Assembly (NCBI GenBank): GCA_025526935.1
Contig: JAHLKD010000106.1
Location: 1-64,000 of the forward strand
DNA: 64,000 nt
From: Cladochytrium replicatum
Taxonomy: Eukaryota; Chytridiomycota; Chytridiomycetes; Cladochytriales; Cladochytriaceae
Direction of reading: 5' to 3'
Within the stretch, counting starts at the first letter, position 1. Each line of letters begins with the position of its first letter. Position numbers and translations under genes: made by a program. This document shows, piece by piece, positions 1 to 55,843 of this stretch. Below the pieces are notes generated by a model. That model was given only the letters and a program-made list of their open reading frames with translations, searched no databases and was not told the DNA's origin.

Positions 1-1299
1 TCGGTATGCCCCCATCGACGTACTTCTATTCCGCTTGTATGAGGCGCTACTCGCATGCGGGTATGGTATCACGTAACCTTGGGCTCGAGGTACAGATCTG
101 GACCTCGAGTAGCTAAACTCACGCGACCCCTGCGGTAGGATCGGGTACGGATTCTTACCTGCTCGCCAGACTCGGTATACCAACATCGATGTGCTTCTAT
201 TCCGCTTGTATGACGCGGTACTCGCATGCGGGTGTGGTATCACGTAACCCTTGGGATCGAGGTACAGATCTGGACCTCGAATAGCTAAAATCACGCGACC
301 CCTGGGGTAATCGGGTACGGATTCTTACCTGCTCGCCAGACTCGGTATGCCCCCATCGATGTACTTCTATTCCGCTTGTATGACGCGCTACTCGCATGCG
401 GGTGTGGTATCACGTAACCCTTGGGATCGAGGTACAGATCTGGACCTCAAATAGCTAAAATCACGCGACCCCTGGGGTAATCGGGTACGGATTCTTACCT
501 GCTCGCCACACTCGGTATGCCCCCATCGATGTACTTCTATTCCGCTTGTATGAGGCGCTACTCGCATGCGGGTGTGGTATCACGTTAACTTTTGGGATCG
601 AGGTACAGATCTGGACCTCGAATAGCTAAAATCACGCGACCCCTGGGGTAATCGGGTACGGATTCTTACCTGCTCGCCAGACTCGGTATGCCCCCATTGA
701 TGTACTTCTATTCCGCTTGTATGAGGCGCTACTCGCATGCGGGTATGGTATCACGTAACCCTTGGGCTCGAGGTGCAGATCTGGACCTCGAGTAGCTAAA
801 CTCACTGCCCCTGGGGTGGGATCGGGTACGGATTCTTACCTGCTCGCCAGACTCGGTATACCAACGTCGATGTTCTTCTATTCCGCTTGTATGAGGCGCT
901 ACTCGCATGCGGGTGTGGTATCACGTAACCCTTGGGATTGAGGTACAGATCTGGACCTCGAGTAGCTAAACTCACGGCCCCTGGGGTGGGATCGGGTACG
1001 GATTCTTACCTGCTCGCCAGACTCGGTATGCCCTCATCGACGTACTTCTATTCCGCTTGTATGAGGCGCTACTCGCATGCGGGTATGGTATCACGTTAAC
1101 TTTTGGGATCGAGGTACAGATCTGGACCTCGAGTAGCTAAACTCACTCGACCCCTGGGGTAGGATCGGGTACGGATTCTTACCTGCTCGCCAGACTCGGT
1201 ATACCAACATCGATGTACTTCTATTCCGCTTGTATGAGGCGCTACTCGCATGCGGGTGTGGTATCACGTAACCCTTGGGATCGACGTACAGATCTGGAC
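1..1299. repeat. Tandem satellite, ~170-bp unit, about 7.6 copies
   Basis: Direct repeats begin at 1, 172, 342, 512, 683, 853, 1023 and 1196, so the period is 170-171 bases (173 for the last step). Copies differ by scattered substitutions and 1-3 base indels, for example the variants near 301-310 and 805-815. The last copy breaks off at about 1299, where ordinary sequence starts. The array runs off the left edge, so its true size is unknown. No open frame is conserved between copies, so short ORFs here are chance. It could be subtelomeric, centromeric or simple satellite DNA; the sequence alone does not decide. Confidence 0.95.
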
Positions 1300-1732
1300 A
1301 ACGATTTAAAGGATGAATGTTGCAGCACTCAAACTGGTATCTGGGCAGCATCTTGTGGAGTTGTAGAGTTGGGAATACATTCATTGGAAGTTCCATGTAC
1401 AAAGGCCCTTCGTCTCGCTTTCTGACAGTTGTTTGCTAGCTAGGTCCTCACTCTTTTGTGGTGTATGTTTGGAAGTCCGGAATATCGCTCGAGAGCTGGA
1501 TTCGATGCTTTTTCTCTATCTTTGTTAGTCTTCACTATTTTGTCTAACATTTCCCCAGTGGCCAATTTTCGGTCAGAATACTCTCAGCTGTCATTCTAAT
1601 ATTGAAGCTGGAAATCAGCAATACGAATGTTGCTTTTGAGGTCGAGTCATTCCACCTGTTATGCCCCTCCTTTATTATTGAACAACCACAGCGCCAGAAT
1701 CAAATGCAAAATCTTTGTATAAGACTGGAGCA
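1300..1732. other. Spacer between satellite and SNX41-like gene
   Basis: No ORF, RNA or repeat is recognised here. The right part is the 3' flank, and presumably the 3' UTR, of the sorting-nexin gene that ends at 1733 on the minus strand. The junction with the satellite at about 1300 is abrupt. Confidence 0.6.
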
Positions 1733-4078
1733 CTATGTGAAAGTCGGTGCTTTCATGCGTCTCCAGTCCACTGCACTCTCGTCTCCCCTCTCTTCAGTCC
1801 GACTAAACACCTGCCCGGCGAAACTGTTGGTATCCTCAACTTTTACCCTCTCCACTTCTGCCCCAGTCTCCCTCCACATCATCGACTCCCTGCGATGGAA
1901 ATCCCTCCACGATACTGCATATCCCACCAACAGATTCCTCAAATCGCGAATCTTCTCCCTCTGGAACCGATCCAAATCCTCCTGCAACTCCACGTTCAGT
2001 GCATTCAAATCGCGAAGTGTACCGGTTCGCTGTTCTACAAGGGTTGTAATCCTGTCCTTATTTCGTGAAATTGCAACCCGGCGAGTGGTTTCCGGATCGT
2101 TGTCAATTAGCGAGTTCAAGGTTGCGAAGAGACCCTGAGGGCGCTGGCTCGAGAATGTACTTGATGACATGGAAGAAGGAGGTGGTGGTGTAGTTCCACT
2201 GTGCCCGAAAGCCCTAGCCGCTTCAGTGGGACTAACCGGCTCATCCGGAAGACCATTGGTAAGCGAAGGAGGTGCTATGTATTGGCGATGCCCTGGTGTT
2301 CCTTCAGCGTTCAGCGCGGCTGCAAGTCTCTGCGCCTCCGCCTCAGACTGTTCGAGCCGCCTCAAGTTTACCTAGATCGAGATTAGTTCCAAGTTACAAA
2401 ATGTTTCGCAAATTCGCTACTCATTTTGTACCTGTTTGATGTGCAGTGTCTCGGTGAGCGTTTCAAACTCCACATGCTTCTCATGTCTCGCAGCAAGCCT
2501 AGCCTCAATCGTCTTCGACAGCGCAGCATATTCCTGCAATGGTTCGGTCATCCTTTCCTCAAGCGCGTTCGAGAGTTTACCAAGATGCGTTCCCGTTGCA
2601 TCAAAAGCGGCACCAAGATGCTCAATACCATGCGAGAGCTCTTTATCCTGAAGTGACCAAGCATTGTACGTCGCCCCAAGCTCAAGATGAGTTGTCGAGA
2701 GGTCGTGGAGAAGCTTTGAGAGTTTCTTGTGCGTTTTATGCATGTGAAGGATGTGGTTGGAAAATTTAATCGTGTACTCCTCTGCTGCCATAAAATGTAG
2801 ATCTGAAGGATAAAACGGCGTCGGCAGATCACAATTAATAGTGAAAGGAAGGATCAGTAAGAAGAGTGTGGACATTCAGAGTTTTGCCATACCAGGATTA
2901 CGGAGTGATCGAGTCTCCGTGAGCTTCTGAATGGCGTTCTTCTGCTTGTTTCCATGACGAAGGATTGCAGCATGCACCGCTGTATTGAGAGCCTCATGCC
3001 ACGCCGTTCCTGGTTCCAAGAACTTGTGGAAAGCCTCGTCCCGTCCAAGAATGGGGTGCGCAGCAATTCTGTTAAGGAAAGTCTGAAGCATTCGCTTGCG
3101 TTTTTCAATCATAAGAGGGTCCTCCTTCGCTTTGCCCTGTTTCGCGGCATAATCGGCCAGCGCGTGCTTCTCTGGAATTGAGGGCACGACGACGTGTGGG
3201 TAGATACGCACGAGAGCTTTCTGGAGTGCCTCGAATTCGGAGTAGCGGTGCTTTGTTTCGTGATGGATGCGGTGCGATTCAATTTCGGTCTGTATGACGT
3301 AGGCAATGTGGCCCGACCCGCCCATCTCCGGCACCTTCTGGGCCTTTTCAGCAATATGGTCAGCAATTGACGTACGATCTCCAAACGTTTGAGTCATACC
3401 TCAACAATCTGTATAATCGGACGGGGAGTTGGCACGCCTGGAACGGTGGAAACGGGAGGGAAAAACGATTCACGCCTTAGAGAATTCAAGGCTCGGTCAA
3501 GGTACGAAGAGTACATAGGTGCCTGATAATGTAATCAGTCCATAAAAACACTGTTATTCGTAATATTGCTCAAGGAGGATCACCTTTCCCTTTCCCTGGT
3601 CGCTCTCCTGGTGTAGGGACCTGTTTGAGCCTCCAGCATTGTAATATAGTCCTCCCGCCTCCCTGTATGACGCGGGAGGAGCAGGATCATCCTGATTATC
3701 GCCAAGAATAGTCCCAGAAAAATCGTAGACGCTGTCATTGAGAACCTGGCTCTCAAAGTGCGAGGAAGTGGCCAAGGGATCTGACACTAAACCAAGGCCC
3801 GAAACGGCAGGGGAGTCCGGCGATGAAGGATTGGAAGAAGACGGTAACAGCTGGGAAGAGGAAGTTGGAGCATCTTCAGCCCATTTTGAGGTAGCTGGGT
3901 GGTGCGTTGGCGAAGACACATGGGCAGATGAGGATGATGAAGAAGGTTCTTCCGAGTAAAGGGCGGACAGCGGATCGATGAAGCTGGTTAGTCAAAAAAG
4001 CGATCAGCATATTTCTCTCCGTTACGTTTGCCGCGGCATGCATGCCGTGCCGCCAGTCCATTCATACCTCGCACTCAT
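1733..4078 (-). CDS. SNX41: Sorting nexin with PX and BAR domains (Snx41/Atg20-like)
   Basis: Six exons on the minus strand (4068-4078, 3584-3983, 3400-3522, 2893-3343, 2432-2802, 1733-2371) join into 664 residues, close to yeast Snx41 and Atg20 (about 625-640). Residues ~1-165 are a low-complexity Ser/Pro-rich leader. A PX phosphoinositide-binding domain covers ~170-290; it has the usual start leading to GHIAYVIQTEIES, then RYSEFEALQKAL and VPSIPEKH. A BAR-type coiled-coil dimerisation domain follows to the C terminus. The family forms heterodimers on endosomes and sorts cargo such as SNAREs to the Golgi, with roles in selective autophagy. The first exon codes only three residues plus two bases; it is chosen because it gives an ATG, a GT donor like that of exon 3 and the right phase. 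Start confidence is moderate. The gene is divergent from the Nup192 gene, 72 bases away. Confidence 0.9.
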
Positions 4079-44823: not shown

Positions 44824-47272
44824 CTATCTATTTCCGGGATCCTCCTGACCCGGCTGCTCTTGATTTTCCTCCTCTGCTTCCTCCGTAATCGAGCTGTCCA
44901 AAATCCGAGACCCACGCTGTTGTTGCTGCTGCTGCTGCTGCGTTTGAAGTTCATCCACGCTACCATGTTCGTCCGGAGTGCTCCGGCTAGTTGCCGCATT
45001 CCCACTATCAGATTCCACCCCAAAAGACGGTGTCCTGACTGCAGTGGATCCTTCACCAACTACCTCAGCGTTCCGCCTTCGTCCAACAAACGTCCACGTG
45101 CGCCTCCACCTCGCTCTCCGCGAAACGCTCGTATCCTCCTCACTCGACGCCGTCTGCATCGACGACGTCGACGCCCGCGGTCCAGCCGAGTTCCCTCTTC
45201 TGTGCGGACGGTGATGCAACGCCGCAGACGAACTTGAAGCTGCCCCCTCCGATGGTCTCTCGGCCACCACCGATGCTGTAGGTGCAGATTCCTCTGCCTG
45301 CCCCAAAGGCGCCGAAACCTCTTCACTCACCTCTCTCTCCAGCTGCAACCTATCCATCCTCCGTCTCCTCCTCCTTCGTCTCCTCGCCGCCTCCGGGTCC
45401 TCCTCATCAATCTCCTCGCCCTCAACTTCACCAAGCCATTCCGCATCACGGTCTTCAGGTCGCACTGCCTCCCGCACACACAGTGGGCACGTCCGGTGTC
45501 CACCAATCCCCGTCTCCGGATCCCCACGAAGCCATTCGTCAATGCATTCCTTGTGAAATACATGCCCGCACGCGAGTTCACGCAGTCGGTCCCCAGTTTC
45601 ATATGCGCAGTAGCAGATCGCGCATGTTTCGTAGGAAGAGTCAATGGCACGAGCTGCGGCATCAGCGCCAGATGTGTCTGTTCCAGCAGGTGGCGCATCT
45701 TTCCCTGCAGCCTCGTTTGAGGCGCTGCTGTGTCCATCTTCAACGACCTCAGGCTTCTTGCCTAATTCATCCTGCTCGACTCCAAAAGACGACGCCACGT
45801 TGGAGGAAGATGTGGCGCCTGGAAGTGCTTCGGACGGCGAACGGCTTTCTTCCTTGTCGACGTGTGTCAGCGACGAATCGGCCGTCAGAGATCTACTTCG
45901 GTTGTTGTCTACAACATCAATTCCGTCGGATTTGCTAGATCCACCGGAAACCCACAGAGGATCGGGGTAACGATTGAACGTCGGTGAAAACCGTGTTTCA
46001 GTGACGATTTGATTCTGAGATTCCTGTCGAAGTTTCGCTGACGTGCTGGAACCGCCGGTGTTGATCCGCTTCGGCTGCTTTTCCGCTGGAACGTCTTTCT
46101 TTTCACGTTCCGGCGTGCTAGATCGGCCAGATGCTGTTGCAGCAGCCTCAGCCTCCCGTTTATGCTCCTCATCGATCCTCGCATACTCTTCTTCAGAAAT
46201 AATCATGATCTCCGTGACTGGTGGCATCTCGTCGCCGTCTCTCTTTGCATCCTCCCCACTTGCCGTTCGAAGCCCATGTCGTTCCGAATCGTGCTCGTCC
46301 AAAGCAGGAGACGCAGTTGGCGTCCCTCCACCTCCCGCTCTCCGCTGGAGCGTTCGCAACAGAGTCCCCTGTTTTGACGCCCGCTCCGCCTGCGTGAGCT
46401 TGTCGGTCATCCGGAACGAGAATGTGCGCAGCCGGGCAAGTTCGCGTGGCGATAAACCGCGGGTGTTGCCACCGGCAGTCAACGAAGCAAGATTTGCCAT
46501 CTCTGTTTCTAGACTCTCTGACCTTCTTCGCATGACAGTGGCGAACACGATCAATGCGAAACTGAGAATCATAACCGTCCAAGTGAACACGGTGTCCGCA
46601 AAAACAAGCCAATAAATGAAGCGGTTGGTGTTCTGACAGGTTTCCGTTTGCCAAAGATAAACGTTTCCCTAGAGAGCAATGAACGGACTCAGCTAAATGC
46701 CAATGGCAGAATCCGGACATACCACAAGGAACCAGCAAAAAGCAAAGTAGTCTGCAAAGCTCCATGTCAACCTTTACGAACATAAGCTGTGAGAATATGA
46801 AAATAGCAGCAAAACGTAATATCCACCTCAAAATGCGAAACCATGCAGTGTCCTCCCAGAGGTGATGTGTTTCCGCCAAATGCCCCACAAGCTTATCCGG
46901 CAGCTTGATGAATACAACGCAGCTCTTCACAAGTAGGTAAATAGAAAGCGGTTTGTCGCAAGGGAGCGTGCCCCATATGGACAAGAACACGACGAAGATG
47001 GTGATATACATGAAATTGAGAAACTTTTCCGCGAGGATGCTGTTCAGAATCGCTCTGCGCTGCGTGGCGTAAGATTCGCCGGCTGAAGGTGGTGGAGAGG
47101 TCTCACTGGTGCCAGCACTGGCTGGCGTTGCGGAACGGTTGGTTCTGGATATTGTTGGCGTGTCCGCAGCGGCAAAGTCCTCGTCACCATCGTTTCGAGA
47201 GCTGCTAGCGACAGTGACTTCAGCGCGCCGGTCTGGAGATGCGTTCAGGGGTGCATTTGGCTCCGCCATCAT
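44824..47272 (-). CDS. Multi-pass membrane RING-H2 ubiquitin ligase
   Basis: Two exons (46733-47272 and 44824-46668) give 794 residues. A ~75-residue low-complexity N terminus is followed by about four membrane segments, including FMYITIFVVFLSIWG, WILRFAAIFIFSQLMF and TWTVMILSFALIVFATVM. A long Ser-rich cytosolic region precedes a RING-H2 finger at about 45480-45630. It reads CAICYCAYETGDRL, then CGHVFHKECIDEWL, an extended loop, and CPLC; all eight zinc ligands are present. The C terminus is Arg- and Ser-rich with a poly-Gln run at 44918-44940. Such proteins ubiquitinate membrane or secretory-pathway substrates with an E2. The intron donor I use (GTTCCT, at 46732) is needed for frame; a better-looking GTATGT ten bases downstream would shift it. 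The ATG at 47272 is the first of two in tandem. Confidence 0.85.
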
Positions 47273-47688
47273 CAAAAGTCTGTCCAACGATATTGAGGGA
47301 CAGTTCGAGGCAGATTCTCGGTGTCGTAATACAGTCAAGTAAAGGTTCCAGGTAAAGATAATTTGTTCCAACTCCACACTTTCACAATATCCCGTTCGCA
47401 ATCCCGGCTCGCAGCTCGCAGCTCTCCCAAAGTGAAGTTTGAGTGTTCCAACACAAACCAAAGTTGGTAAGCGACACGTCAGTTTTGGAATTGGGAATTG
47501 GGAATAAAGAGTAAAATAGCCAGAAATCTGGAACAGCAAAGAATCTGAGAAAAGACATTCAGACAAAGACCTGGGAGTTTCTCTAAAGGAGATCAATCTG
47601 ATGATTGAGTGGGTACGCAACGAGCGAGACCGATATCATGCGAAATCGAATGTCAGCAACTTTTTGACAAGGATTGGAGCAGAAAGGC
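47273..47688. promoter_or_regulatory. Divergent upstream region of RING gene
   Basis: Lies between the RING gene start (-) and a plus-strand coding-like frame at 47689. No clear motif; several imperfect inverted repeats (GCTCGCAGCTCGCAGC at about 47408) are visible. No gene called. Confidence 0.35.
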
Positions 47689-49045
47689 ATGGTGGAGATG
47701 CTCGACGCTGTTGTCGGCGCCATCGCCCAGATCAAGCCAGACGAGTCTCCTGAAAGCCAAGCGTGGAAGACTGTACTGCCGCGTCTCAAATGCTCTTTGA
47801 CCTCCGGGTTGGGCAACTTTGCTTTTGCATTCTTGGAGTCTGAGACGATCTCGACAGTGGAGGAAATTACTCACAGTCTTTTGACGTTTTTGGTATCGAT
47901 CCTAATGTACGGTCGTGATCATGGAGTCGTTCATACAAACTACCGTAATGCATCATTGGGAATCGCCAAACTACTTGCAACTTTTGCCTCGTCATTTGAA
48001 AACTGGATTACTGAAAGGGGGTACAATCAGCGAAAAGTCAGAATCCAAGGCTGTACTCAATGAAATCTACACAACTATCCACATCTCAATGGGAGACCCT
48101 CTGCACAACCGCCCTCGCTTCCACCTACAAAGTTCTCATGCAACTCGACGCCTGAACAGTCGAGATCACCCAAGACTCTTTCGTGCTCGGTCTCGTCCAC
48201 CTGTGCACCTACGATCTCGCCAAAAAATCCCCACAATACCCTCCGACAACCAACGCCTGGACGCAAAACCGATCGAGATCCGCACGTACGCGCTCGGTAA
48301 ACTCGTCGTTCACTCGGGGCGCAAACTGGATAGATGGTGGGAGGATTTTTGAGCCCGAAATGTTCTGGGGGATTACTAGTACATCAGAAAACGGCAGTAA
48401 AAGCACACTGGCGTTTCATTCAGCTCTTCAGGTGCTTTCTTTCTGGCTGAAATTGTCTCCAAGAAACGCTGTGGAGTGGTCGAAAAATGAAACAGGCTGT
48501 TCGTAGCTGCTCGCTGTAAAACAGAAATGGTTTCACCTTGCTCGTCGATGTGGTACGCTGCGCTACCCAGGAGATGGAGATTGCATTGCCAAAAATGATC
48601 AGTTGGATGTTTGACGACACCATGAAACCTTGCCCTCTGCATCGCCGAGTGCGCAACAACGGTACACGTGCTGAAAGATTTGTGCTAATCAAGATGTCTA
48701 GTTGAGCAGCGTGTGTCTGCTTGGAAAATCGAAGTCCCCCACCGTATATGTGACTGCCCGTTCAGGGGCGTCAAAAAGTCGAATCATCTAAGGCAACCTC
48801 ATCGAATATTTGGAAAACTCCAATGCCAAAGCCGCAATTGCACTCAGGCACGCTTCAGTCGCAGGGAAATTGACCTTCCAAGCACACGATACACTCCGCA
48901 AAAATGGTTATTGCCAAACACTTGGATGTATCCGCACAACGGAAAGTTGTTTTTGGTGTATCGATGGGAACGGGTTTGGTGCGCAAGTTAGGGCAAGAAG
49001 CACCACTTTGACCTTATGTGGTGGTAGTGAGTGTGACCCATAGGT
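47689..49045 (+). pseudogene. Decayed helical-repeat-like coding sequence, family unknown
   Basis: An open frame from ATG 47689 to 48063 encodes a plausible helical protein (VEEITHSLLTFLVSILMYG, NYRNASLGIAKLLATFASSF). After about 48000 coding character continues in other frames, for example TISEKSESKAVLNEIYTT, then ASTYKVLMQLDA and ITQDSFVLGLVHLCTYDL, then at about 48800 NSNAKAAIALRHASVAGKL, with stops between. No set of GT-AG introns I tried restores one frame. The pattern suits a HEAT/ARM-type protein gene that has decayed, or one with introns I failed to place. I cannot name the family. Confidence 0.4.
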
Positions 49046-49155
49046 AAGAGGCCCTCCTCCTGATCATCACCCCCATCGTTGTTAACGTTCTTTCTTGAAC
49101 GGTCTCAAATTCAATTTCCCGCAGCCATTTCATACTTCCATCGAACTCCACCAAA

Positions 49156-52100
49156 ATGAAGGCATTCAATAAGCTGTTCAACCCAAAGGACAAGACGGCC
49201 AAGACGGCTAAGAAGGAATCAGCGATTGTCACGGTGCAATCTCTCAGCCCTCTCAACAATGACACAGTGCTCGTGCAGTTGGAATTGCCACCCGACGTCA
49301 GTTTCAGTGACTTTGCTGCCGCTGCCCTCTCAAAGCTCGACCTGGCCGGCCACCGCTTCAACGGACATTCGCCGCAATTTCTCATCAATACCGCTGTCCA
49401 TTTTGGATAATCGCGATGTTGCCAACGCTATAATGTCCAAGTCCCAAGTTTTTGTCGAATGGCGAGTGCGCGAGGTAAGTTGCATTCCCTTGTCATGCTC
49501 ATTTTACTAATCACATAAACACTTAGATCGCCAATTCATCGTTACCGCTGCCAGTTCCTGTACCTCTCACGGCGGCTAACTGGATATGCAAAGAGCATCG
49601 GACCGCCAGTCATGATATTTTCGTCTCGTATCGTCGCGAAAACGAAGGAGACCTTGTGACGACCCTGGTGCCGTACCTGGAGAAGGTTGGGAAGCGGCGC
49701 TTGGGCAACAAAATGAGCGTTTTCTGGGAAATGTCTTAATGATGCCCAGAACTGGAAAGAAGGGTTCATCAATGGCTTACAGCAGAGCCGGGTCATCGTT
49801 TACCTTCTCAGCGCAGAATCTTTCACGACAATGAACCAAAATGTTCTTGCTGGGTATGTTGCACCGACGGACATTGTATAATGTGCTGATCAAATTTGAA
49901 AAATCACAGCAAGGAAGATGATGTACTGATAGAGATTGAAAATGGGATTGAACTTGCCGAATATTCCCCCAATGTTCGCCTGTGTCCTGTGCTCCTAGAC
50001 ACCATTGACGGAGACGGGAGTGTTATTCCATTCACCAAACTTCCAAAGTTTGATCCAGTACTGAAGTCATTCTCAAATGATCAGCTTGTCAGTGTCTTCT
50101 CTCCAGATGCTTTTGTTAAAAGTCAGAGCAGGTCAGGCAGAACTCTTTGTGACACTATATCCAGGCTTTTTCAAAACAACTGTATTCATCTTACTCCTAC
50201 TGAAGGAAAGCTGTATCAGGTTGCGTACAATGTAATTGACTTAGTGAGACCTCTGTCGAAGGTTGCATCAGGTTTGTTACTTGCTAATTTAATCTCTACC
50301 AAACTAATTATTATTGTCACTAGATAATTTGAGCACATTGCCAGAGCCTCCAGTGCATTTTGTTGGACGTAGCAATATATTGTCAGATGTTCAGATGCAA
50401 CTTATTAATCATGGTGCAGCTATTCTGGTTGCACAAGGCGGCATGGGCAAATTGAGCATTGCACTCCAGTACGTCAAGCAGCATGGAAGGTTTTATGATT
50501 CAATCTTTTGGATTCCCTGCAACACAGCTGCAACTGCAATATCTGCTCTGTGTAGTTATGCTGGTTCACACTTTCACTTGACAACCTTTGAAACTATTGC
50601 TCCTGAAGATCTTGTTCGGTTCATGAGTGAGAAACTGTCCAAGATTCATTGCTACCTACTCATCCTTGACAATGTTGATGATGAATCAGTGCTTGATCAA
50701 GTTTTAGATTCTGTGATATTGAGTGGAGATGTCCTTGTAACTTCTCGATCCAATAGCAGTTTGGAAGTGAAGATGAGAAGTTGGGTTGATCCGCTAGTCG
50801 AAACTATTCATGTTGAAACTTGGTCAAGTGATATATCACACCAATTCTTGATGCAGCGATTGAGCAAAAGATATCAGTATCTCATTTCAAGTCAGAATGA
50901 GGTTGCAGCTCTCTGCAAACTTCTTCAACACATTGATGGGCTTCCTCTTGCAGCAGAGCAAGCTGCTGCATTCATAGAAAGACAGCAGTGTAGCTTCTCT
51001 GATCTTGTTGTACGTATCAACAGTTACCTGCCTCAAGATCCTGATTCCAGAGTTGGCATTGCATCTTTGTCACTATCAGTGATTGTCAAGGCAGGTCTTG
51101 ACACGATTGGCCCTGCTGCATCATTGCTTATTCAAGTTCTTTCATTCTATGGCAGTCGTGATATTCCATTTGACATAGTCAATCAAGTTGTATTCCTGTT
51201 ATCTGAATGCAAATTTGAAGGCACTTCAAAATCAGATTTCGATTCTCTTTTGTTGCTTCGGCAATTACGCAGTCAGTCACTTGTCTACAACTCTGCCAAC
51301 AACAGGCTGACAACACATTCACTTATTCAGCAAGTTGTTATGTCAGAAACTTTATTGTCAACAAGACCTCAGTTGACACAAATATCTCTACAGTCATTGC
51401 TCACATTATTTCCACCAAAAATTGATGATCAGGTTGAGAGTTCAAAGATTCCGTTGGCAACAGTGCTCCTCTCTCACACAGAGGCCGCAGCTAAAAAAAT
51501 TCTCCCAGATTCAGTCGACAACCCTTCAGAGTCATTTGGCACATTAGATGATTTACAATGGCAGTGCCAATCCTTCTGCCTATTTGTTGGATATTACACT
51601 CAGTGCATGGATGTACTGAATGATATGTACTCAAGAAAAGTAGCACATTACAACACACTTGAACATAAACATATTGCTTCAACACTAAACAGCATGGGAG
51701 TAGTTTCATTAAGGCAGGGCAAATATGCAAAAGCAGCAAATTTCTTAAAAGACTCCCATGGTATCAAGATGAAACTATACCGCACGAGTGAACATCCAGA
51801 CGTAGCAGAAACTCTGTTGTATATGGGACAGGTTGCAGATAGCCAAGGTGACTATGCCAAAGCAATGCAACTGTATGAAGAGTGTCTTGCAATATATGTT
51901 AAAGCATATGGAACACGAGAGCATGCTGAAGTGGCCACAACACTCGGCTGTATGGGCAGTGTTGCAAAAAGTCAAGGTGACTATGCCAAAGCAATGCAAC
52001 TGTATGAAGAGTGTCTTGCAATATATGTTAAAGCGTATGGAACACGAGAGCATGCATCAGTGGCCACAACACTCAACTGTATGGGACAGGTTGCAAATAG

Positions 52101-52743
52101 GCAAGGTGACTATGCCAAAGCAATGCAACTGTATGAAGAGGATCTTGCAATCAAAGTGAAAGCATATGGAACACGCAAGCATGCATCAGTGGCCACAACA
52201 CTCAACTGTATGGGACATGTTGCAGATAGGCAAGGTGACTATGCGAAAGCAATGCAACTGTATGAAGAGTCTCTTGCGATATAAGTGAAGGCATATGGAA
52301 CACCAGAGCATCCGTCAGTAGCCACAACACTCAACAGTATGGGACAGGTTGCATATAGGCAAGGTGACTATGCCAAAGCAATGCAACTGTATGAAGAGGA
52401 TCTTGCAATATATGTTAAAGCATATGGAACACGAGAGCATGCTGAAGTGGCCACAACACTCAACTGTATGGGACAGGTTGCAGATAGGCAAGGTGACTAT
52501 GCCAAAGCAATGCAACTGTTTGAAGAGTCTCTTGCAATCAAAGTCAGAGTATATGGAACACGAGAGCACCCTTCAGTTGCAATCACATTACACTTTATGA
52601 GTGTGTGCTATTACAAAATGGTTGACATGTCAGGAATGCAGAGGTGTGCAGATGAAGCACTGCAGATATATTCACAATGCCTTCCACCAGGTCATCCACA
52701 CGTAGCAGCATTGCTTGAGTTTCTGAGTGACGTGTCTAGATAG
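49156..52743 (+). pseudogene. TIR - NB-ARC - TPR (NLR/STAND-like) gene with three disabling lesions
   Basis: Four exons fit by phase: 49156-49474, 49527-49853, 49910-50271, 50324-52743. Residues ~1-105 may be a PB1-like ubiquitin fold (LELPPDVSFSDF; weak). A TIR domain follows (HDIFVSYRRENEGDL, then NDAQNWKEGFINGLQQSRVI, LLSAES, and DDVLIEIENGIELA with the likely catalytic Glu). The NB-ARC ATPase has Walker A QGGMGKLS, Walker B CYLLILDNVDD, DVLVTSRS, GLPLAAEQAA and THSLIQQVV in the MHD position. About eight TPRs end at TAG 52741. Lesions: a frameshift at about 49362-49366, a second inside the TIR at about 49727 (stop at 49737), and TAA at 52282-52284 where sister repeats have Lys or Tyr codons. 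In plants, animals and bacteria TIR domains cleave NAD or signal in immunity. Composition is AT-rich from ~49900. Confidence 0.85.
51848..52610 (+). repeat. TPR-coding tandem array, 129-bp unit, six near-identical copies
   Basis: The core GACTATGCCAAAGCAATGCA recurs with exact 129-base spacing (marker base at 51856, 51985, 52114, 52243, 52372 and 52501). The unit is 43 codons, one longer than the usual 42-residue kinesin-light-chain-type TPR. Units are far more alike at DNA level than protein constraint needs, which suggests recent duplication or gene conversion. Flanking TPRs on both sides are diverged. Confidence 0.95.
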
Positions 52744-53403
52744 AATTTGGAGAATGGTATATTAAATAACATGAATTGTCAAGCATTGGATTAGAATTTG
52801 CCCGTGACGTTGTATCAATAACTAGTATCAATAACACCGTATCAATAACACTAATAAAATCAATGACACTGTCTTGTTACTATTTAATTTTGTTTTGAAT
52901 CTCTCCCTACCAACTCCCAACTCTCTACCCCTAATGTATTTATTTGTTTGTTATTTGTTTTTAACTGTTACATTCCAATAACGATTACAGTAATATTCTT
53001 GAAAAAATCTCCATCCACTCAAAACAAAGGATTATCAATCTCATCATGCTTATTCTGAGCCTGTGACAATCGTGCTAGTGCTTCGCAATACCAGGAATGA
53101 AGCTGCCCAGAAAAACGTGGCCAAGGCTTGTGGAAAGCCGTGCCAAATAGGTTTGAAAATAAGCTTACGGTAATAATGATTTGATGATACAAGATTGTTG
53201 CAAAGGTAGAGCTCGCCAGAAAATCGGAGAACTCGGCTGAACGGAAGTCATGCTCACGCTGGGAGCTTAACAAGAGCTGGTGTCGAATATTTATCCACCA
53301 ATTTTATATTTATAATGCAATTGAAGTCATGTTTCTTTAGATCAGGGAAGTTTGCTCATCTGAAGTGAAATACAGCACACAATGTCCACCGATCACGACA
53401 TTT
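52744..53403. other. AT-rich spacer with TATCAATAACA-type minisatellite
   Basis: At 52814-52860 the word TATCAATAACA with short variants is repeated several times. A small minus-strand frame at 53019-53273 lacks an ATG start in frame; a spliced alternative from an ATG at about 53254 is possible but resembles no family. The rest is AT-rich 3' flank of the TIR gene. Confidence 0.5.
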
Positions 53404-55843
53404 TCAGCGTCGCGGAGTTGTCAGAGAAGAAAGCAACAACTTTATCGAGGCATCATTCTAGCATGTCGATCGAGTAAGCATCAAAGATAAACTTGCGTGT
53501 GATTACACCGTTTTACCTGAAGGATACACGTTTTTGTGCTGCGAATGTTCTCGAGCTGAACAAAAGCAGTCAGTCAATTGACGTTTAATTTCGGCATTGC
53601 GCTGTAATACCTGCTCTTCCACATCTCTCTCGACCTGCTTCAACTTTTCTTCCACCGGTTGCAATGTCCCTTCCGTTATACTAATAGCAAGTCAAAATTT
53701 ATAGGTCATTCATTTGATTGCGATGTCTCTCACTTTGCTTCATCATTTAAAGACTCCTTGTACTTCTCGGCTTCCGCTTTCCACATCTCCAACTCCCTAT
53801 TCATGCTATCCACGTCCTCCTGCACATAATGGATCATCTTCCCCAACGGGTTCGTAGATCTACACAGCGACTGAATCAAGTCCCTCAATGCCACGATCTA
53901 AAGGGAAAAGGTAGAAACCTGTCAGTCCAAGAGAAGAAAAACGCCGTAGCACAAAAATTAGTTTCTGAACCTCCTTCTTTTCGCTGGCTTTGTCGGGAAT
54001 GATCTGAACCGCCGTCTTCTTTGTTTGCTCCCCTGGTTCGCCTTCGAGCTCTTTTTTGGTTTCGAGTATCTTTCGAACCAAACCACCTTTTTGTAAATAG
54101 AGTAGATCGAGTTTAGACGCATTCGGCTTTGGCATTATTTGTAAATACCATGTTGCGCATCTGGGTCTAGCACGGTAGATTCGTTTGCGACCTGTAGTAG
54201 AACCAAAACATATAGATCAGCTTCGGCGATGTAAACCTCCAAAGCTAGCATCACCTCCACTTCAGCCGTCATGTCTTCAGTAGGAATAATCACATACTCC
54301 TCGTCGTCATCCACTTTTCTCGCCCCCTCCTGAATGATCAAGTGCGAAGGTCTTCCCAAACCGACCCAAAAAATTAATAAGACAAGAAAAGCAAACTAGA
54401 TTGTTTGTTCTCTTTACCCTGTTTCTCGAACTGCAACTTCCGGCGGACGTTGTTTGGGCGGAGCAGGTCTGGCGCTCGCGGGTCTCTCACGCCTGCTCAC
54501 CTGTGCAACAGGTTTCAGCTGCCTCTCCTCCGCATCAGCATCGGAATGTTTCACAGCCCTTTCATCTTCATAAATCAGTAAAATTCAGTGATTTTTGAGT
54601 AGAAAAAGTCATCATCTCAATCATACCGGTCTCATTCAATCCTCCTTGATCAACAGTCGCTGAAAGATCCGTGACTGACTGGCTCTGGCTTTCTTCAAGC
54701 CGCTTCTGTGCTTGCGAAGAGGTTGGCTGCTGCTGCTGTTGCTGCACTTTTGGTTGAGCCTGAGATGGATTGGACGGTTGCGGTATCGGCGGCCTCTGTG
54801 CGTTCTGTTGTTGTTGTAGGGTTTGCACTTCCTCTTTAACCGGAGCTTGCTGTCGCTGCTGTTGTTGTTGCTGCGGTGGCTGCTGCTGCTGTTGTACTTG
54901 CTGCTTAGGAGCGGGATGTTTAGATTGAACAGGGGGGTTTGTTTGGGGCTGAGAAACTCTGCTTGGCGCTTCTGCTCGCGGTGGTGCAGCAGATCCACTT
55001 TCGACAAAAAAAGTAGAACAAATATCAATTTGTGTGGACTGAGGACGGTATGTTTTTGCATGTCTACGTTACTTTGAGCTAGCAGGAGGTCTTGCACTCT
55101 GCGGATGCGCTGGTTTTGCACTAGGTGGGGGTCGTCGTTTGCTAACAAAAAACAAAAACAGCAAAATTTTGTCAAGAAGAAGCTATGGTCGTAAGAAGTT
55201 ACCCTTGATGTTCCCCAGCCAACACCCGCCTCACAGCGTCCGTTGTATCGATCTTTTGTTTTAAACATTTGATGAATCTTAAACCGAAGAGAATTATAAT
55301 TCCTGGTACCTTTTTCAAGATTACCTTTCCAATTAACTGAATAAAGAGATTTGTTTCTTCTGGATCCATTCCCGCAACGATCTTCAAGGGGTTTGCGCGA
55401 ACCTCGACCCCGGTTGAAAGACCTGATTGTGGGGATCGATAGCATCACCGAAAAACCTTTACATTGACTTGTCATTCATTTTACCAACGCAATCGATCAT
55501 TTTTGTCAAGTACGCAACTTTCGCATCCTTCTCCTTGATTTTCGATTATCAATGCGCTGCTTCGATATCTACCAAATTTGTTCACCTTGACATTTTCCGA
55601 ATTCATCTCGTTCTCATCATACAGTCCCCCAGCGAAACCCGTAGTTCTGATTAACTCGCTGAACATGTCATGCAAGTAACGAAATGGTGGTTTTGATAGC
55701 AGTTTCGGGTTCAACGGTGGCTTCTTGATGATCCTGCCCATGATCTCGGCGGTGTTCTTCATCAGATCGTCTAGCGATTTCTGTCCCTGCTGGGTGCTTC
55801 CCTGATCACCACCGCCTGCCCCTGCCAGATTCTGTGTCGACAT
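53404..55843 (-). CDS. IFT54: Intraflagellar transport protein IFT54 (TRAF3IP1/MIP-T3)
   Basis: Fourteen exons: 55586-55843, 55485-55533, 55310-55422, 55203-55252, 55073-55141, 54627-54997, 54418-54565, 54255-54351, 54149-54191, 53971-54086, 53734-53897, 53611-53680, 53517-53555, 53404-53457. They total 1641 bases, 546 residues. The N-terminal CH-like domain matches the family closely: PPLNPKLLSKPPFRYLHDMF, ANPLKIVAGMDPEETN and TDAVRRVLAGEHQG. The middle is Gln/Pro-rich and unstructured. The C-terminal coiled coil has SLCRSTNPLGKMIHYVQEDV and DSMNRELEMWKAE, then ends NDASIKLLLSSLTTPRR like other IFT54 proteins. IFT54 is an IFT-B complex subunit that binds tubulin, kinesin-2 and IFT20. MSTQNLAG at 55843 is preferred as start; an in-frame upstream ATG at 55903 exists. 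It diverges from UBC9. Confidence 0.95.

Follow-up and report, generated by a model that had tools for sequence, protein, structure and literature searches.

The closest described relatives of the gene analyzed here are the NB-ARC/TPR NLRs of fungi, among them PLP-1 of Neurospora and genes of Podospora, which combine a central NB-ARC with a C-terminal TPR array (PMC12881547, PMC4986451), the Podospora arrays consisting of near-identical repeats that vary on the concave side (PMC4986451). Plant TIR-NB-LRR receptors resemble it in carrying a TIR followed by an NB-ARC, and one study states both that a glutamate is needed for the NADase activity of plant TIR receptors and that SARM1 E642 belongs to the NADase class (PMC7282519). 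As to chytrids, a 2014 survey records no NLRs there and ties NLRs to filamentous, multicellular growth (PMC4986451); a 2022 paper reports TIR in NLRs of this zoosporic phylum, Chytridiomycota, in a single sentence citing others (PMC9815663); and in a 2025 survey the NLR counts begin at one per species for Chytridiomycota and Mucoromycota, with none recorded for Blastocladiomycota (PMC12258605). The first-pass annotation, which considered a fungal TIR-NB-ARC family notable, overstated its novelty, since the one citing sentence in PMC9815663 already places TIR in Chytridiomycota NLRs. What is new here is that a family with repeats of this kind has expanded outside Dikarya, and that it has an unmatched N-terminal domain; in the literature searched we found no description of the expansion, of the repeat behavior outside Dikarya, or of the exon 1 domain, and an earlier description of the family is possible.

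The family differs from each of these systems in its own way. Unlike the known fungal NB-ARC/TPR NLRs, it has at its N terminus a TIR preceded by an unmatched domain, rather than a patatin, HET, HeLo, or prion-type domain (no HET match was found in exons 1-3 of paralogue L007 or in exon 1 of L011), and its lineage is not Dikarya as far as a flagellar marker shows. Unlike plant TIR-NB-LRR receptors, it has TPRs in place of LRRs, no LRR family appearing among the Pfam matches listed (the best 25 where there were more), and an extra domain before the TIR. SARM1 carries ARM and SAM domains where this family has NB-ARC and TPR, and has in common with it a TIR with a glutamate aligning with E642.

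The gene occupies positions 49156-52743 of the window (the whole 64,000-nucleotide stretch of DNA that was analyzed), on the plus strand, with four exons running from an ATG at 49156 to a last stop codon at 52741-52743, and its domain order is N-terminal domain, intron-split TIR, NB-ARC, and TPR array with 43-residue units. Exon 1 (49156-49474) encodes a conserved N-terminal domain of about 110 residues with a basic start and loses its frame near 49,395; exon 2 (49527-49853) encodes the first part of the TIR, including HDIFVSYRR, and loses its frame near 49,733; exon 3 (49910-50271) encodes the remainder of the TIR, including the glutamate that aligns with SARM1 E642 (the first E of VLIEIE), and then a linker; and exon 4 (50324-52743) encodes the NB-ARC (50419-50979 by Pfam) and then the TPR array, with an in-frame stop at 52282-52284. 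The three intervening introns (49475-49526, 49854-49909, and 50272-50323, of 52, 56, and 52 bases) are all GT-AG, and a tandem array of a 129-base unit, corresponding to the 43-residue TPR, extends over 51822-52568 (5.8 copies, 89% matches).

Two frame losses and one stop make the window copy a pseudogene; it belongs to a fungal NLR (STAND) family built as N-terminal domain - TIR - NB-ARC - TPR. Exon 4 up to the internal stop scores 27.4 bits for NB-ARC (Pfam cut-off 23.5) and 123.6 bits for TPR_12 (cut-off 30.1). The TIR pieces are too broken to reach the TIR_2 cut-off of 28 (12.3 bits on one of the pieces scanned), and the TIR is recognized through paralogue L007, which scores 28.9 bits for exon 2 alone and 34.0 bits for spliced exons 2 and 3; the TIR exon of another paralogue, L016, falls short when taken alone (19.3 bits). 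Both the combination of TIR, NB-ARC, and TPR in one gene at this place and its broken state, as claimed in the first-pass annotation, are therefore borne out. Exons 1-3 of the window copy, aligned piecewise, are 79-100% identical to L007 at the amino acid level. The intron positions are common to the paralogues examined (4 loci compared), and intron 2 lies at the matching place in 10 of 12 loci, the other two having fallen outside the search range of our script. The P-loop reads GGMGKL in the window copy and GGMGKS in the six other copies aligned.

The segment containing the receptor copy (48660-53068) is missing from the otherwise collinear contig C152, where 47 bp stand instead; the part that resembles other receptor copies runs over approximately 48745-53057. 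The left flank (46609-48659) comprises part of an adjoining minus-strand gene and the left part of a decayed plus-strand gene copy, which continues in the right flank (53069-53257), and a further 53-base match lies at 53408-53460; the flanking pieces are 68-80% identical to C152. The counterpart of the decayed gene (L071, C152:10900-15000) has an open 923-aa frame with a TPR on the minus strand at 301-3072 of that interval, and since the point of difference falls inside this open frame, the gene must have had another copy, into which the receptor unit inserted and which has decayed since. The first-pass annotation does not mention this insertion. A search for a target-site duplication at the two ends of the window insertion returned 6-base matches only, hence no clear duplication, and a transposon with target-site duplication was rejected on that ground. 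The receptor copies on C45 and C71 have flanking sequence in common that reaches further than what the window shows. Within the left flank, 251 bases (48329-48579) are 98% identical to C56:127417-127667, probably a dispersed repeat.

The first-pass annotation had supposed that this copy belongs to a larger family with functional versions elsewhere, and the sequence evidence agrees as far as open frames can speak for function. With the NB-ARC part of the window copy as query, the 50.5-Mb genome yields 68 matches, which collapse into 33 loci on 20 contigs when matches within 1.5 kb are merged; at 8 of the 33 loci, the window's included, a single uninterrupted match covers at least 1300 of the 1353 bases. 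At least 14 places in the genome exceed the Pfam NB-ARC cut-off, each inside one of the 33 loci, in a profile search that scores the best candidates only and so could miss a further family; among the paralogues, L007, L011, L012, and L016 score 28.0, 35.3, 41.0, and 48.0 bits (cut-off 23.5). The NB-ARC motifs GGMGK, LLILDNVDDE, TSRS, and GLPLA are invariant in the seven sequences of alignment A3, and the TIR exon 2 was found by tblastn at 17 distinct loci among those examined, plus a 19-residue scrap at C26.

Ten loci were modeled with splice sites chosen to maximize protein length, and all lengths are accordingly upper bounds. Five (L007, L008, L009, L010, and L011) are open from the start codon into the TPR array, and four of these have no early stop in the sequence covered: L007 (1323 aa) and L009 (1062 aa) end at a stop codon with a common C terminus, SDVS[R/I], while the frames of L010 and L011 are open to the end of the sequence modeled. 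In L008 (1091 aa) the frame ends within the array; L016, for which no start was found, has a frame open to 942 aa; early stops interrupt L015, L020, and L026; and no model was obtained for L013. The splice choices depart from the conserved sites at introns 2 and 3 of L011 and at intron 3 of L007 and others. L007 and L008 (C45:257-262 kb and 310-316 kb) are near-identical copies that lie in opposite orientation and are separated by about 53 kb; the compared stretches differ by a single silent and a single replacement change, but the TPR frame of one stops early. On C90, the NB-ARC part of a family member (144176-145528) lies about 8.4 kb from the TIR and exon 1 parts (153976-155025), reflecting either an interruption or a different arrangement.

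The TIR domain retains the residue on which NAD+ cleavage would depend. In a 10-sequence alignment (three TIRs of the receptor family, six other TIRs of this genome, and SARM1), the column of SARM1 E642 is E in 10 of 10 sequences in each of three alignment runs, and all six family TIRs of alignment A2 have the exon 3 glutamate; the check for an NADase glutamate proposed in the first-pass annotation thus came out in its favor on the basis of alignment. (In full-length numbering the SARM1 sequence used begins at residue 563, which puts the final E of WVHKE at 642.) The E of the W(K/R)EGF motif had been considered as the catalytic glutamate and was rejected, because the alignment puts the E642 counterpart in exon 3. 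The W of WVHKE is N in the three family members aligned, with a longer loop before it; other TIRs of this genome also lack a tryptophan before the glutamate, and its loss is therefore not special to the receptor family. Profile comparison of the family TIR with SARM1 by hhalign covers columns 13-86 only, about the first half (probability 83%, E 9.1e-06), and stops short of the glutamate; the A2 profile found nothing in the PDB at E up to 10, and a single-sequence search brought up two bacterial TIR chains with E values no better than 0.78 and 0.94. Genome-wide there are 71 TIR_2 matches (e.g. L036-L065), which to our knowledge is many TIR domains for a fungus; at least 8 are receptor-family TIR exons by position, and the others include a group repeated on C61, C63, and C80, in which two matches fall within frames 1349 and 2327 residues long.

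The domain of about 110 residues before the TIR, missed in the first-pass annotation, is conserved across copies (alignment A1, nine other copies). It has 34 matches in the genome, most at receptor loci; partial copies of the unit lie away from any NB-ARC match at C21:177122, C45:325.5-325.9 kb, and C97:121956, and two weak matches lie on C101 and at C73:55322. The two members scanned have no Pfam family match, and the exon 1 profile returned four PDB matches at E 1.0-1.2, none better than E 1; identification with a known domain was rejected on these results. From the strand-helix pattern, read by eye, we would guess at a ubiquitin-like or PB1-like fold. The C21 interval (176620-177458) has both exon 1 and TIR-region similarity with no NB-ARC match nearby, and could be a partial copy or a short TIR gene.

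Between the diverged copies L007 and L011, dN/dS is 0.15 for the TIR, 0.19 for the NB-ARC, and 0.29 for exon 1 by simple Nei-Gojobori counts, and these low values indicate that TIR and NB-ARC have been kept by selection in the longer run; close copies give higher and less informative values (0.44-0.83 for exon 1, and as much as 0.70 for the TIR, where changes are few). The TPR array scores 336.6 bits for TPR_12 in L007. Its units have a mean pairwise DNA identity of 90.5% in L007 (9 units), 97.2% in L010 (9 units), and 86.8% in L011 (10 units, lowest pair 80.6%), so the 43-residue units of all three exceed the threshold for highly conserved repeats (>85% identity over at least 100 residues), measured here on DNA by a procedure that differs from the published pipeline. 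The units are near-identical except at a few positions, several of them on the ligand-facing side, a pattern shared with fungal recognition NLRs such as those of Podospora (PMC4986451).

The ligand-facing positions of TPR helix A are 2, 5, 9, 12, and 13 according to PMC1261162, and we mapped the 43-residue unit to this numbering by our own alignment (unit G19 = TPR G8). Over 32 units, entropy is higher at these five positions (one-sided p=0.0011), and also at all seven ligand-facing positions once 33 and 34 are added (p=0.0079). At the five positions pN/pS by simple counts is 0.176/0.088 in L007 and 0.400/0.215 in L011, values equaled or bettered by 256 of 5000 random five-column sets for L007 and 7 of 5000 for L011, while L010 has no variation there; at all seven positions the excess is small (0.128/0.115 in L007 and 0.286/0.230 in L011). 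Eight variable columns had been chosen on the same data, which makes the literature positions and cross-gene comparison the fairer tests; in the latter, columns selected for their variability in one gene gave, in the other, 0.193/0.129 and 0.322/0.086. The outcome is uneven from gene to gene, and the detector repeats may be under diversifying pressure.

From the constraint, the conserved glutamate, and the repeat variation we infer that the family encodes recognition receptors signaling through the TIR, most likely by cleaving NAD+. The explanation that we consider probable as a whole is that intact members are TIR-NLR sensors, and that copies such as the window's inserted elsewhere and died. 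Intact members would be intracellular and held off by bound ADP; a ligand would bind the concave face of the TPR array, whereupon the NB-ARC would exchange nucleotide and oligomerize; and the gathered TIR domains would become an active enzyme on NAD+ via the conserved glutamate, the outcome being NAD+ loss or a nucleotide signal and then cell death or defense, as in plant TIR receptors and SARM1. New specificities would arise from copying of whole units and homogenization of repeats, and some copies, such as that in the window, would land elsewhere and die. Alternatively, the TIR could be a scaffold without enzyme activity of its own, signaling by TIR-TIR contact with a partner TIR gene of this genome, for which the TIR_2 matches outside the family are possible candidates and with which the N in place of tryptophan and the longer loop before it would agree; we regard this as doubtful, given that the glutamate is invariant in the family TIRs, that the TIR is constrained between diverged copies, and that the other TIRs of this genome also do without the tryptophan.

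The family might also serve as an internal regulator (self sensing, development, or control of mating or fusion) rather than a defense receptor, as some fungal NLRs act in allorecognition (PMC12881547, PMC10197012); we think this unlikely, because many copies, many of them broken, and ligand-facing repeat variation fit changing targets better, an argument that nevertheless does not separate non-self recognition from allorecognition. That the copies are passengers of mobile elements, spread by transposition without cellular function, would accord with the insertion relative to C152 and with the shared flanks of the C45 and C71 copies, but the 6-base end matches with no clear target-site duplication, the retention of introns, and the low dN/dS (well below 1) that TIR and NB-ARC show when diverged copies are compared make it very unlikely. 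TIR combined with NB-ARC and TPR is common in bacteria, and this general knowledge is what speaks for bacterial contamination or a very recent bacterial gene, the former named in the first-pass annotation as the finding that would undo it. The modeled copies, however, have GT-AG introns, the loci number 33 on 20 contigs, and the prokaryotic matches are distant, with 21-28% identity among those listed (for plasmids, 10 of 21 records); in a GTDB scan resting on two short patterns, which finds few distant relatives, 76 stretches matched a pattern and 3 loci were confirmed, at 22-27% identity. We therefore reject contamination or a recent bacterial origin, the probability of which we take to be negligible, while an old transfer from bacteria is possible.

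If the favored reading of intact members as TIR-NLR sensors is extended to the lineage, zoosporic fungi may run a diversified TIR-NLR immune repertoire of their own, with the NB-ARC genes identified here all belonging to one TIR-NB-ARC-TPR family, arrays homogenized and then varied at ligand contacts, and a new adaptor domain before the TIR; we hold this broader view only tentatively, as possible rather than probable. It would imply that rapidly evolving TIR receptors existed in fungi before Dikarya, and in the absence of complex multicellularity. The presence of 33 loci, open members, and repeat variation in a fungus with a flagellar marker is relevant to the question of whether receptors can diversify rapidly only where there is hyphal multicellularity, and the family provides a fungal TIR that can be assayed beside plant and animal TIRs.

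The host looks like a zoosporic fungus from its sequence markers. The PDB chains closest to a 213-aa RPB2 fragment, separated by small margins (275 to 262 bits), are those of Schizosaccharomyces pombe, followed in order by Komagataella, budding yeast, and mammals; Fungal_trans has 24 matches in the genome, and a flagellar radial-spoke family has 7, of which 6 are above the cut-off. As far as these markers go, they support the fungal, flagellated host supposed in the first-pass annotation. Against this stands a NUP192/205-type protein in the window, which is closest to vertebrate NUP205 (226 and 221 bits, versus 101 for fungal NUP192), an animal-like ranking that may reflect divergence of the ascomycete proteins. 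RPB2 itself occurs twice (C39:323784 and C18:352492; L066 and L067), with 87% DNA identity over 2.46 kb, and C152 is 68-80% identical to the window flank, both of which suggest that large-scale duplicates of some age persist in the genome.
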